This document shows positions 11,274 through 16,324 of a stretch of DNA of 64,000 bases, in pieces. The stretch spans positions 1 through 64,000 of the forward strand of contig NZ_SBII01000005.1 in assembly GCF_004028155.1 (NCBI RefSeq), given 5' to 3'. The notes under the pieces were generated by a model. The model ran no database searches. It was not told the DNA's origin and saw only the letters and a list, made by a program, of their open reading frames with translations. Within the stretch, counting starts at the first letter, position 1, and every line of letters starts with the position of its first letter. This DNA comes from Flavobacterium cerinum (GTDB taxonomy: Bacteria; Bacteroidota; Bacteroidia; Flavobacteriales; Flavobacteriaceae). The position numbers were made by a program, and so were the translations under genes.

Positions 11274-11373
11274 AATATTAAAATTGTAGAAAAGATTTTT
11301 TTTTAAAGTTAGAAAACAATTTAAATTCTATATTTATATTGAATAAAAATGAAATTAATTATAATAATAGTAT

Positions 11374-12492
11374 ATGGGATTATTTGATAAATTAAGAAAT
11401 GAGTTTATTGATATTATTGAATTCATCGATAACAGTAACAATATAATTGTAGCAAGATTTGAACGATTTCAAAACGAAATTAAAAACAATGCTAAATTAA
11501 TTGTCAGGGAAGGACAACAGGCTGTTTTTATAAATGAAGGTAAAATTGCAGATATTTTTAATCCGGGTACTTATACGCTTAATACTCAAAACTTACCAAT
11601 ATTAAGTACTTTACAAGGATGGAAGTATGGGTTTAATAGTCCTTTTAAGGCGGAGGTATATTTTATAAATACCCGTAATTTTATTGATCAAAAATGGGGT
11701 ACTAAAAATGCTATTACACTTAATGATGACCGTTTTGGGATGTTGGAAATTCGTGCATTTGGAACTTATACTTTCAAGATTACAGATGCTGGAAAATTCA
11801 TAAAAGAAATTGTAGGTACAGATGGACAGTTTACAACTGAAGAGATTGTTGAACAATTAAAAAGTATAATAGTAAGTCGTTTTACAGATGCTATTGGTGA
11901 AGCTAATATGCCAGTAGAGAGTTATGCCGCAAATTTGAATGAACTTTCAATGGCTATTTTTAGTTATATGAAAGATGATTTTGCTTCTTATGGTATGGAG
12001 GTCAGCAAGTTTTTACTTGAAAATGTTTCAATGCCGGAAGAAATCAAAAAAGAAATATTTGAACTTAGCAGGTTAAATAAAATTGATTTTAATAAGTTAA
12101 CCCAATATAAAGCAGCTAAAGCAATAGAATTGGCTGCAAATAACCCTTCGGGTATAGCAGGAGCGGGCGTTGGAATGGGAGCTGGATTAGCAATGGGAAA
12201 CCAAATGGGCCAAGCTTTTAATCAATCTCAACCTGCACAAACATTTAATACTGCACAAAATCAACAAATTCCACCTCCATTGCCAGTAGAAGCAAAATAT
12301 TTTATTGCTCTCAATAACCAACAATCAGGACCTTTTAGTTTAATTCAACTTATAGAAATGACAAAAACCGGACAACTTACAAAAGAGACTTTAGTTTGGA
12401 GTCACGGAATGACCGGATGGGAAAATGCCGAAACAGTTACTGAATTGCAAAATATTTTCACACAAACCCCTCCACCTTTACCGGGCAACTAA
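11374..12492 (+). CDS. SPFH-domain protein with C-terminal GYF_2 domain (YdjI-like)
   Basis: The 372-residue protein has no membrane segment or signal. Residues about 35-245 resemble the SPFH/virion-core-like YdjI family: a REGQQAVFINEGKIADIF strand pair, the GTYTLNTQNLPIL segment, and the DDRFGMLEIRAFGTYTFKI core. A Gly/Ala-rich, low-complexity linker (about 265-285) and a Pro-rich hinge follow. Residues about 306-358 (GPFSLIQLIEM, WSHGMTGWENAE) form a GYF_2-type domain, which usually binds proline-rich or partner proteins. It is 8 bases upstream of a zinc-ribbon membrane protein, so the two probably form one operon and complex. The role is not established. Confidence 0.8.
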   Translation: MGLFDKLRNEFIDIIEFIDNSNNIIVARFERFQNEIKNNAKLIVREGQQAVFINEGKIADIFNPGTYTLNTQNLPILSTLQGWKYGFNSPFKAEVYFINTRNFIDQKWGTKNAITLNDDRFGMLEIRAFGTYTFKITDAGKFIKEIVGTDGQFTTEEIVEQLKSIIVSRFTDAIGEANMPVESYAANLNELSMAIFSYMKDDFASYGMEVSKFLLENVSMPEEIKKEIFELSRLNKIDFNKLTQYKAAKAIELAANNPSGIAGAGVGMGAGLAMGNQMGQAFNQSQPAQTFNTAQNQQIPPPLPVEAKYFIALNNQQSGPFSLIQLIEMTKTGQLTKETLVWSHGMTGWENAETVTELQNIFTQTPPPLPGN

Positions 12493-12500
12493 TTATTCTA

Positions 12501-13583
12501 ATGGAATCGATTGAAATAAAAGAAAAAGAATTAAACATTTTTAAATGTTCAAATTGCGGAGCAGGACTTAAATATAAACCCGGGACTACAACTTTGATAT
12601 GTGATTATTGTGCGACACAAAATGAAATTCATCAAGAAAAAACAATAATTGAAGAATTAGATTTTAATGATTATCTTGAAAAATCTGAATCTGAAAGTCT
12701 TGAATTAGAAAAAATAATTCGTTGTAAAAATTGTGGATCTGCTTCCTCTATAAATGAAAGTTTAAAGTCATTACATTGTCCTTATTGCAGTTCTCCTTTA
12801 GTTGAAGATGATATTAGCGAGGAACGATTTATAAAGCCGGGTTATGTACTTCCTTTTAATTTAGATACTCCAAAAGTTTATAATTTACTTGCTAATTGGG
12901 TAGACAGTCTATGGTGGGCTCCTAATGATTTAAAGAAAGCAGCTCTTTCTCCAATTGGACTGACTGGTATTTATGTTCCGTATTGGACTTTTGATGTGAA
13001 TACCTTTAGTGTGTATGTGGGAGAAAGAGGCGAAAATTATCAAGTTACAACAGGAACTGGTGACAATAAAAGCACTGAAACAAGGACACGATGGTATACT
13101 GCTACGGGTACTATTTCTATTTTTTTTAATGATGTTATTACTCCTGCATCCGGAAATATTGATTTGATTTCTTTGAAAGAATTAGAACCATGGGATACAG
13201 ATGCGTTAATAAAAGTTAATGATCAATTTTTGAGTGGTTTTATTACTGAAAAGTATAAGATTAAATTAAAAGAAGGCTTTCAATCAGCGAAAATTGTTAT
13301 GGATGAAAAAATTGTACAAGAGATCCGTCATGATATTGGTGGAGATAAACAGCGTGTAAGTTCGGTTAACACACAGTACGATAACATACATTTTAAACAC
13401 GTTTTACTACCGGTATATGTAAGTTCATATCGTTATAAAAATAAAATTTATAACTTTTATGTAAACGGAAGAAATGGGAAACTCATTGGAAACAGACCTT
13501 ATAGTACGGTAAAAATCATTTTTACGATTATTACAGCTTGTATTTTAATTGGGATTTTAATTTTAATGTTTAATGGGAATTGA
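12501..13583 (+). CDS. Zinc-ribbon protein with C-terminal transmembrane helix
   Basis: The 360-residue product carries two zinc ribbons: CSNCGAG...CDYCATQ (about 15-40) and CKNCGSA...CPYCSS (about 75-98). A long middle domain (about 110-320) with YVPYWTFDVNTFSVYVGERG and TRTRWYTATG is typical of proteins often misnamed 'primosomal protein N' or 'RNA polymerase subunit P' in databases. A single membrane helix (IIFTIITACILIGILILMF) ends the protein. It starts 8 bases after the SPFH gene. The pair probably forms a membrane-associated assembly in which the ribbon protein anchors the SPFH partner; this is inference. Confidence 0.75.
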   Translation: MESIEIKEKELNIFKCSNCGAGLKYKPGTTTLICDYCATQNEIHQEKTIIEELDFNDYLEKSESESLELEKIIRCKNCGSASSINESLKSLHCPYCSSPLVEDDISEERFIKPGYVLPFNLDTPKVYNLLANWVDSLWWAPNDLKKAALSPIGLTGIYVPYWTFDVNTFSVYVGERGENYQVTTGTGDNKSTETRTRWYTATGTISIFFNDVITPASGNIDLISLKELEPWDTDALIKVNDQFLSGFITEKYKIKLKEGFQSAKIVMDEKIVQEIRHDIGGDKQRVSSVNTQYDNIHFKHVLLPVYVSSYRYKNKIYNFYVNGRNGKLIGNRPYSTVKIIFTIITACILIGILILMFNGN

Positions 13584-14690: not shown

Positions 14691-14907
14691 TTGTATAAGA
14701 AAAGGCTTCTGTTAATTTAGGAGTCTTTTTTATTATTTGTTATTGTCTAATTTATTATTAAGATTAGATTAAAACAATATGTTTGACCTTCAAAAATATA
14801 TCATTGGTTGATAAATTTAGTTTTATCTAACAAATCATCAATGAGATGTTGCTTTTTTCAACAAGATAAAGTGTTATGTATTTTAATATCCGTACTATAT
14901 TTGCCAT
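14691..14907 (+). other. Intergenic region upstream of the riboswitch
   Basis: An imperfect hairpin around AAGGCTTCTGTTAATTTAGGAGTCTTTTTT (about 14703-14733) probably terminates the preceding lipoprotein gene. The sequence TATATTTG at 14896-14903 matches the -7 consensus and would place transcription initiation close to 14910, at the beginning of the cobalamin riboswitch. Nothing else is seen. Confidence 0.5.
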
Positions 14908-15078
14908 CGGATTTTGGTTACCATTTTTATGGTATTAAAAGGGAATCGGGTGTAAATCCCGGACTGTTCCTGCAGCTGTAATCTTCATAAAAAAAAATAA
15001 TATAAATGCCACTGCCAGATAGGGTGGGAAGGCTTATTATTTGAAGAGAGTCAGAAGACCTGCCAACTTTCATTTTTT
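14908..15078 (+). promoter_or_regulatory. Cobalamin (B12) riboswitch
   Basis: The hallmark elements appear in order: GGGAATCGGGTGTAAATCCCG (14941-14961, the conserved G-rich P3-P4 junction), CTGTTCCTGCAGCTGTAATC, the GCCACTGCC segment (15008-15016), GGGAAGGC (15027-15034), and the B12 box AGTCAGAAGACCTGCC (15049-15064). A TATATTTG box at 14896-14903 fits a promoter just upstream. It precedes the secreted T9SS protein at 15191 by about 115 bases on the same strand. Repression by adenosylcobalamin or another corrinoid is expected from the family; translation- versus transcription-level control cannot be told by eye. Confidence 0.93.
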
Positions 15079-15190
15079 CGATGCTTTCAGGATAAAGGCA
15101 TAGAAAGCTAAACTTTTCCTTTGCGGGTAAGGCCATGCCTTCTATTCTTTATTCTTGCGATTTAATGTATATTAATTAATAAATCATAGA

Positions 15191-16324
15191 ATGAAAAGAA
15201 TTTTTACTATTGGTCTTTTACTATTTTTACTAACGTTTTCGTCAAAATTATGCGCTCAGTTTACCGAAACAGATATTAAGTTTTGGGTAGGTGAGGGTAC
15301 AAGTACTGCCGTATTGGTTGTAGATTTTAGAGATGGAAGCAGTGATCCGTCTTTTGCGTGGGGCTACCGTTACAACGAAGGAACCGGGTTAACATTTAAA
15401 GATATGCTGGAAGCCATGGCTGCAGTTGAACCAAAATTTATCATTAAGCTGAGCAATATTGGTTTTCTTGAAGATATAACCTATAATAACCATGCTGGTC
15501 TTGCCGGACATCCTGATTGGTGGAGTACATGGTCTGGAGACAATCTTCAGGAAATGTATATGAACAGTGGAGTTAGCGAAGAACTGTTAAATGGAAGATG
15601 GTATGGAGTATCTTATGGGTTTATGCCTGAAACTGTAGCACCAACAGTTACATACCCTGCTTATAGTTCTACCTGGTTTAATGCTGAAAATGTTACGTAT
15701 TGGATTGGTGACGGTCAAAACAAATCGGTTATTATTATTGATTTTAATGCAGAAGGTACTGAGCCTGTAACCTATGCATGGGGTATAAAATACAACGGTG
15801 TTATTACTGCTGCAACTGCACTTGCTTTAATAGATGAAGCAGATACAAATCTTAACATTACAATTACAAACAACGAAATAACTTCAATTGTTTATAAGGA
15901 TCTAACAGGTGTAGAAGCAGATGGGAATTTGTGGAATACTTTCAAAGGAACTAATATGTCCAATTGGGTTATAAACAATAACATATCAACTGAACTAACA
16001 AATAACAAATGGTTTGGAGCTACGTTTGGTACTGCATCAGCAAGAAGGCCATTTACTCCAATTCCGGCTACAGAGATTGTAAATGGATTAACTGAAAATA
16101 ACAAGATAGCTTTTACAGTCTATCCTAATCCGGTAGCATCGTTTTTAAATATTAAATCAGATGATGCTGTTCAAAAATCAGAAGTATTAAATATTACCGG
16201 ACAGACTGTTTTAACGGTTCTAAATTCTAATAGTATTGATTTAAGTAATATTAATACAGGTATATACTTAGTTAAGGTGTATACAGAAAATGGTATGGCT
16301 ACACAAAAAATAATAAAGCAATAA
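15191..16324 (+). CDS. Secreted T9SS substrate with duplicated domain, under B12 riboswitch control
   Basis: The 377-residue product has a signal peptide (to about residue 23, CAQ) and two related domains: residues about 28-145 (IKFWVGEGTSTAVLVVDF, FAWGYRYNEG) and about 167-281 (VTYWIGDGQNKSVIIIDF, YAWGIKYNG). Both end in a W-x-G pattern (RWYGVSYG, KWFGATFG), so they are a clear internal duplication. Residues about 305-377 are a type A T9SS sorting domain (YPNPVASFLNI, GIYLVKVYTENG). The upstream cobalamin riboswitch suggests a role in capturing or handling corrinoids at the cell surface, analogous in principle to BtuG/BtuH. No BtuB-type receptor is adjacent. Corrinoid binding itself is inference. 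Confidence 0.8.
   Translation: MKRIFTIGLLLFLLTFSSKLCAQFTETDIKFWVGEGTSTAVLVVDFRDGSSDPSFAWGYRYNEGTGLTFKDMLEAMAAVEPKFIIKLSNIGFLEDITYNNHAGLAGHPDWWSTWSGDNLQEMYMNSGVSEELLNGRWYGVSYGFMPETVAPTVTYPAYSSTWFNAENVTYWIGDGQNKSVIIIDFNAEGTEPVTYAWGIKYNGVITAATALALIDEADTNLNITITNNEITSIVYKDLTGVEADGNLWNTFKGTNMSNWVINNNISTELTNNKWFGATFGTASARRPFTPIPATEIVNGLTENNKIAFTVYPNPVASFLNIKSDDAVQKSEVLNITGQTVLTVLNSNSIDLSNINTGIYLVKVYTENGMATQKIIKQ

Follow-up and report, generated by a model that had tools for sequence, protein, structure and literature searches.

A cobalamin riboswitch-controlled T9SS cargo protein of Flavobacterium cerinum with two predicted transcobalamin-type beta domains, a candidate for cobamide capture

We analysed a stretch of 64,000 nucleotides (the window) from Flavobacterium cerinum, positions 1 to 64,000 of contig NZ_SBII01000005.1 (assembly GCF_004028155.1). 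A gene at 15191-16324 on the + strand, an open reading frame (ORF) with an ATG start codon, lies behind a cobalamin riboswitch. From its family matches and homologues, it encodes a 377-aa cargo protein of the type IX secretion system (T9SS) with two predicted transcobalamin-type beta domains. We consider it probable (about 0.7) that this is a riboswitch-controlled, T9SS-exported protein that would capture cobamides with tandem transcobalamin-type beta domains and without an alpha-barrel. The evidence supports the secreted protein as a good candidate for B12 capture, which is support for a candidate and not for a proven function. B12 is scarce and contested, and Bacteroidota have many accessory uptake proteins of unknown role.

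Riboswitch and its gene

An Rfam cmscan search of the whole 64-kb window revealed a cobalamin riboswitch aptamer (RF00174) at 14898-15081 on the + strand, with a score of 108.9 bits against a gathering score of 31.5 (E 2.3e-26). The match covers the full model (1-189), so the aptamer is complete, and RF00174 is the sole Rfam family above its gathering score in the window. The aptamer ends 109 nt before the start codon of the 377-aa gene. The original prediction had placed a complete cobalamin riboswitch directly upstream of a secreted-protein gene and proposed a covariance-model search as a check; the search bears it out. This riboswitch has the top score among the three cobalamin riboswitches in the 4.1-Mb genome (31 contigs).

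The pairing of riboswitch and gene is kept in homologues. We collected 11 proteins of the window type, eight with two domains and three with a single domain (L010, L011 and L135; L and G numbers are our handles for loci and genomes). RF00174 lies directly upstream on the same strand in 10 of the 11, with scores of 108.6, 87.0, 98.7, 108.0 and 114.0 bits for L007-L011 and 95.9, 92.0, 86.4 and 99.6 bits for L131-L134. For the eleventh, L135, the contig starts 15 nt before the ORF, so the upstream region is absent. The gap between aptamer and start codon is 24 to 125 nt in nine window-type genes. The mechanically called ORF of L010 starts within the aptamer, and its likelier ATG is 81 nt later, 24 nt past the aptamer. 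Because the 4.1-Mb genome has only three cobalamin riboswitches and the pairing is kept in homologues, pairing by chance would be an unfair rival.

Architecture of the protein

All 377 residues are accounted for by a signal peptide, two beta domains and a T9SS tail, with no alpha6/alpha6 barrel among them. A putative Sec-type signal peptide, read by eye, covers residues 1-23 (15191-15259, +), with putative cleavage after ...CAQ. In 10 homologues the N-terminus is likewise hydrophobic and followed by AQ. Domain A (residues 24-157; 15260-15661, +) and domain B (residues 163-293; 15677-16069, +) were delimited on an AlphaFold model; domain B has the topology of domain A and is the part of the model that aligns with the beta domain of intrinsic factor (Z 11.7). 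The T9SS type-A sorting domain (residues 310-377; 16118-16321, +) matches TIGR04183 over residues 310-377 with 50.7 bits (cut-off 23) and PF18962 over residues 310-375 with 49.3 bits (cut-off 27). That the protein carries a sorting domain of this kind and a duplicated domain had both been predicted. The duplication holds as well: domains A and B (each about 130 aa) are related, with 26% identity over 121 columns (E 6e-20), and the duplicated motif appears as WVGEGTSTAVLVVDF in copy A and as WIGDGQNKSVIIIDF in copy B.

The two domains belong to no family that sequence comparison recognises above threshold. Searches of Pfam, NCBIfam and the PDB with the sequence of the window protein gave matches to the T9SS tail only. 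In Pfam at E-values up to 1, PF18962 was the only match, and the profiles DUF5074 (BtuG) and DUF4465 (BtuJ) were unmatched. The members of the domain alignments gave stray weak matches only against Pfam (best E 0.0064 and 0.094), and the domain profiles gave nothing useful against the PDB (best E 0.89 and 1.5). A weak but specific similarity was found to NCBIfam NF040672, the SCO2322 family. At E-values up to 10, 8 of 17 genomes match it, and in all eight the best whole-genome match overlaps the domain gene, as judged by coordinates and frame length (L062, L129, L054, L051, L042, G059, G539 and G807). The best score is 22.2 bits (E 1.9e-4) against a cut-off of 85, all scores being far below it, and no match was found in the window's own genome. 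The similarity may point to a relative in Actinobacteria, to which we take the SCO2322 family to be tied. We found no paper under the name SCO2322 in the open-licence literature.

Predicted fold

Residues 24-296 of the window protein were modelled with AlphaFold from an 11-sequence alignment (mean predicted local distance difference test score, pLDDT, 90.3; predicted template modelling score, pTM, 0.84). A second model was made of a free A-like domain from Bacteroides pyogenes, from 25 rows (one doubled), none shared with the first alignment (pLDDT 87.5, pTM 0.86). Both models predict a beta-grasp with a beta-hairpin inserted after the helix, plus short extra strands; in the second model, more residues separate the hairpin from strand 3. 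In domain A of the window protein the predicted elements are strand 1 (38-45), strand 2 (54-61), a helix (69-79), the hairpin (83-87/93-98; 15437-15484, +), strand 3 (111-116), strand 4 (122-124) and strand 5 (136-142). A beta-grasp with a hairpin after the helix is the definition of the transcobalamin-like SLBB clade, and the hairpin has a role in transcobalamin, as given in the accessible parts of PMC1796856 and PMC13385337.

We ranked structures with VIA-align 2 over the top Foldseek chains. Intrinsic factor (2pmv) came first, with Z 11.7 (2.6 A, 102 residues) for the window model and 11.4 (2.4 A, 107 residues) for the second. Haptocorrin (4kki) and transcobalamin (2bb6) each scored 11.5 and 11.0, respectively, and 5np4, an isolated transcobalamin beta domain with cyanocobalamin, scored 10.7 and 10.3. 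The bacterial structure 3u7z scored 9.9 and 9.6. The next unrelated folds, of SAMP1 and MoaD type, scored 7.2 and 6.5, a gap of about 4. Foldseek itself puts transcobalamin-type proteins at ranks 1-6 for the window model, with unrelated proteins interspersed from rank 7, and at ranks 1-19 for the second; the transcobalamin-type alignments listed for the window model are all on domain B. The viral fold library gave nothing useful. Thus, as predicted folds, both models are closest to the beta domain with which intrinsic factor, haptocorrin and transcobalamin bind cobalamin, hairpin included, and their similarity lies above that to other beta-grasp folds, the structural mark of the transcobalamin-like SLBB clade.

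Conserved residues were mapped on this model. Residues of domain A that are invariant in all 11 sequences include W57 and G58, F92 at the hairpin, two tryptophans of strand 3 (W111 and W114) and two aromatics of strand 5 (W137 and Y142). Invariant glycines are G34, G36 and G58. Transcobalamin contacts cobalamin with its hairpin, strand 3 and strand 4-5 region, according to the accessible text of PMC1796856. The invariant aromatics of domain A are compatible with a predicted binding face, which is not a contact map. Domain B is less conserved than domain A; among the eight two-domain proteins it has 10 invariant residues against 18 in A, and a mean pairwise identity of 0.40 against 0.52.

Distribution of window-type proteins

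Window-type relatives are scattered. In a plain protein search, 110 of 120 relative genomes match the window protein. Since tail-only matches are uninformative on the domain, we used the six places with E below 1e-20, the window's own included; five genomes among the 120 relatives have such a match. Further matches run from about residue 150-270 into the tail with 27-36% identity (G060, G067 and G089, for example, among the matches listed). Within the genus, 35 of 398 genomes match: seven are of the window type (own included), 22 have the length of a BtuG fusion (743-777 aa) and six are weak (E 4.5e-5 to 5.2e-4). These six were dropped, five for internal stop codons and the sixth, L157, as a 72-aa frame overlying a gene that resembles an aminotransferase by eye. 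A weak profile match in G449 was set aside for its two stops. None of the 398 genomes is listed with both the window type and the BtuG-fusion type; G108, from another family, has both.

Some window-type genes stand beside receptor genes. A TonB receptor gene comes after the single-domain gene in L010 and L011; after the two-domain gene of L009 come a T9SS cargo gene and a TonB receptor gene (plug domains with E about 3e-9). Whether homologues sit beside btuB, BtuG or BtuH genes was a check proposed at the outset, and the answer is positive, through these three relatives and through the homologous domain described next.

A homologous domain in btuB-btuG-btuH loci

We scanned 84,980 species genomes from motif seeds, a search that depends on near-exact short motifs and is the whole of our coverage outside Bacteroidota, and of the 133 related places obtained the best 80 were kept. 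By title these best 80 of 133 are from Bacteroidota, save one metagenome-assembled genome titled Ruminococcus. Plasmid searches gave nothing. Domain profile A1 also matches proteins of about 755 aa. In the one that was scanned (L038), a longer form of the domain is N-terminal to a DUF5074 propeller (E 1.1e-120), and the preceding gene is BtuH by sequence (7biz, E 3e-43; 8blw, E 4.1e-68). By hhalign, domains of the window type and those fused to BtuG are homologous (probability 98.9, E 1.3e-17).

The domain is fused to DUF5074 in 70 of the 80 loci. BtuB, BtuH and a BtuG-type gene distinct from the fused protein, all on the strand of the domain gene, are present in 77 (phmmer, E up to 1e-8). A cobalamin riboswitch was found in 77 with our model R1, which was built partly from 9 of the 80 loci, and in 9 of 9 by Rfam. 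In five longer loci inspected the riboswitch stands first in the operon, with 3.4 to 6.2 kb between it and the domain gene. The misses are L069, L079 and L083, the last two with short upstream sequence. In L069 (Epilithonimonas hispanica), BtuG, BtuH and the fused domain are retained, but the stretch examined contains no riboswitch and no BtuB. Short loci with about 1.5 kb on each side gave a riboswitch in none of eight cases (six fused, L042 free and L044 a weak match), whereas in the five longer loci the operon head is 3.4 to 6.2 kb away. The short stretches L159, L160, L161, L163, L135 and L157 likewise have no riboswitch, and L162 has one.

The domain also occurs unfused. In B. pyogenes (L050) the domain forms a probable lipoprotein of its own, 262 aa long, whose gene lies between BtuH- and BtuG-type genes, and in L051-L053 the domain is likewise unfused. 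Of 101 genomes from the family to which the B. pyogenes-like genome G342 belongs, 6 are matched by profile A2. In G828 (L163, 1438-2415) the domain follows a PKD_3 domain, and this fusion adjoins what appears by eye to be the end of a TonB receptor, a fragment for which no Pfam match was found.

Proposed function and alternatives

We propose that low cobalamin would make the riboswitch permissive, so that the gene is expressed. The direction is taken from Bacteroides thetaiotaomicron, in which the uptake promoters tested were nearly fully repressed by B12, as stated in the accessible part of PMC12751083; by analogy, the window gene may be repressed by B12 in the same way. Sec would carry the protein across the inner membrane and T9SS across the outer membrane, so that it would act at the cell surface or in the surroundings. 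Cobalamin or related cobamides might be held by its two transcobalamin-type beta domains, each predicted to be a beta-grasp whose hairpin would contact the ligand. The two domains might either clamp one ligand between them, in place of the alpha-barrel, or bind one ligand each. The ligand would then be handed to BtuG- and BtuB-type proteins, whose genes lie elsewhere in the genome, and from these to an importer of the BtuFCD type.

Several observations weigh against capture. The alpha-barrel of transcobalamin is absent from the window protein. DUF4430 (PF14478), which we take to be the Pfam family of transcobalamin-type beta domains, matched the domain gene in 0 of 17 genomes at E-values up to 10, and hhalign against one DUF4430 protein (L168), a comparison of low power, gave probabilities of 0.2 and 0.1. 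The domain is not filed under DUF4430 because sequence comparison does not reach that family. The best Foldseek E-values are weak, 0.05 for the window model and 0.007 for the second, and the structures compared are predictions. BtuL and BtuK2 belong to known B12 loci and showed no cobalamin binding, according to the accessible part of PMC12751083; therefore, locus membership alone is no proof of binding. The fused domain of E. hispanica stands without BtuB and without a riboswitch, with its full upstream sequence present. Because the synteny of the 80 loci is inherited, they do not count as 80 separate events, and the locus counts reflect a stable arrangement rather than independent origins.

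The alternative that survives best, although it is unlikely, is that the protein is an accessory of the B12 uptake machinery without corrinoid binding of its own, such as a surface scaffold, a docking partner of BtuG or BtuB or an exported helper, in which the beta-grasp would serve protein contacts. Protein binding is common among ubiquitin-type beta-grasp domains. Riboswitch control and the locus association fit this reading equally well, and 70 of the 80 domains are fused to a propeller of the BtuG type, a family that already binds B12. Furthermore, BtuL and BtuK2 of B. thetaiotaomicron lie in uptake operons with no cobalamin binding detected, as far as the accessible text of PMC12751083 goes. 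However, among solved folds the nearest are the beta domains that bind cobalamin, matched together with their hairpin and at scores well above those of other beta-grasp folds, and in domain A the invariant aromatics map to the hairpin and to strands 3 and 5, comparable to regions that contact cobalamin in transcobalamin (PMC1796856, accessible part). In addition, the window protein stands alone, without a fused binder.

A different but related ligand is still less likely. It could be a cobamide precursor, a lower-ligand base, cobalt-containing fragments or the B12-carrying protein of another organism, which would be vitamin piracy. Cobalamin riboswitches are able to control genes for precursors. 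An extracellular transcobalamin-like clade has been proposed, in the accessible part of PMC1796856, to scavenge B12 or precursors. However, nothing in the loci inspected points that way, and the partners there are TonB receptor, BtuG-type and BtuH-type genes. It is very improbable that the riboswitch drives a protein with no part in B12 capture, such as an adhesin or stress protein that only responds to B12 status and has a generic beta-grasp resemblance; the weak Foldseek E-values and the lack of a sequence match to DUF4430 leave some room for it, but it is hard to square with the riboswitch pairing in 10 of 11 proteins, the TonB receptor neighbours, the fusion to a BtuG propeller and a Z gap of about 4 to generic beta-grasp folds.

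Cobamide capture remains our preferred reading of the window protein. A wider proposal, which we regard as speculative and put at somewhat under even odds, is that Bacteroidota hold an unrecognised branch of the transcobalamin beta-domain superfamily with a role in B12 capture at the outer membrane, found fused to BtuG, as a free lipoprotein and as a T9SS tandem 'corrinophore' that would clamp one cobalamin face to face in place of the alpha-barrel. Such a protein would be a bacterial counterpart of transcobalamin, secreted and made from the same half.

Relation to known systems

The two models resemble the transcobalamin-type beta domain (CATH 2.170.130.30) with Z 10.1-11.7 over 95-107 aligned residues, the isolated library beta domain having 105-106 residues. 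Unlike transcobalamin and intrinsic factor, the window protein has no DUF4430 match and no alpha6/alpha6 barrel, and has tandem beta domains and a T9SS tail. The accessible part of PMC1796856 places the transcobalamin-like clade in animals, low-GC Gram-positives, planctomycetes and, less often, euryarchaea, names no member from Bacteroidota, and mentions one beta-propeller fusion, in Clostridium.

BtuG, BtuH and BtuJ, surface lipoproteins of Bacteroides, are riboswitch-controlled accessories of B12 uptake at the outer membrane, and a homologue of the new domain shares loci with BtuG- and BtuH-type genes. They consist of a DUF5074 propeller, a BtuH domain and a DUF4465 jelly roll, respectively, with a lipid anchor, whereas the window protein is of another family and has a T9SS tail. 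In B. thetaiotaomicron, a riboswitch operon encodes the accessory lipoproteins BtuK1 and BtuK2. BtuK1 binds cobalamin, in the accessible part of PMC12751083, and BtuG, BtuH, BtuJ and BtuK1 are known B12 binders of uptake loci from the accessible parts of PMC8941943, PMC12751083 and PMC13398666. If BtuK belongs to this domain family, the binding part is already known. In Flavobacterium psychrophilum, a TonB-dependent transporter preceded by a cobalamin riboswitch has been recorded (PMC9723704, accessible part).

In the open-licence literature, mostly titles and abstract openings, we found no description of this domain, of a T9SS cargo controlled by a B12 riboswitch or of a transcobalamin-like clade in Bacteroidota B12 loci. 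Surface capture of B12 in Bacteroidota is already known, and the domain and the T9SS route are new as far as this literature goes. If capture is the function, Pfam and NCBIfam lack a B12-binding domain family that would be gained here, and the N-terminal domain on BtuG-type propellers of many flavobacteria would be accounted for. T9SS export would serve vitamin capture, and bacterial surface capture would be tied to the domain that animals use to carry B12.

Neighbouring features and other B12 genes of the genome

The consensus of the -7 promoter box in Bacteroidota is TAnnTTTG. A candidate match, TATATTTG, was read at 14896-14903 (+), at the start of the aptamer match. In the alignment of 17 riboswitches the first columns are similar in many rows (TATTTG, TACTTTTG, CCTTTG). 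Between aptamer and start codon, a possible expression-platform hairpin lies at 15089-15155 (+), a long stem in the fold of 15075-15165. This fold is weak (-21.2 kcal/mol, z -1.33, with 21 of 200 shuffles equally or more stable), and neither of two folds of the region stands out against shuffled sequences.

The upstream neighbour of the 377-aa gene encodes a 110-aa probable lipoprotein, read by eye. Downstream, on the opposite strand, are an MFS-like (major facilitator superfamily) gene (PF07690, 28.1 bits, below the cut-off of 33.4), HlyD and outer-membrane efflux genes. None of the neighbouring genes is btuB. The absence of an adjoining BtuB receptor had been noted from the sequence and stands; the genome has its btuB-type gene on a different contig, where a separate cobalamin riboswitch precedes it.

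This second riboswitch precedes a run (L004, 8172-13595) of a TonB receptor gene, a gene for a DUF5074 (BtuG-type) probable lipoprotein, another gene for a DUF5074 protein of the BtuG type, this one ending in a T9SS tail (11311-12612), and a further T9SS cargo gene. BtuF-, BtuC- and BtuD-like genes, named by reading their sequences, lie in the same locus in the opposite direction. The genome thus has three T9SS cargo genes behind cobalamin riboswitches, the window gene included. It encodes three proteins with a B12-binding domain over cut-off, and no DUF4465 protein was found in it. The further cargo (L004, 12612-13595) and one in L009 (509-1462) are 43% identical over 246 columns and are common to two btuB-type loci. 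Except for the tail, they match no Pfam family over cut-off. The L004 cargo was considered as a relative of BtuH and rejected, as BLASTP shows no similarity. The shared cargo may be another B12 accessory protein. The third cobalamin riboswitch (L005, 7838-8025) has no ORF above 60 aa between it and a gene about 370 nt further on, which by eye is fabH-like.

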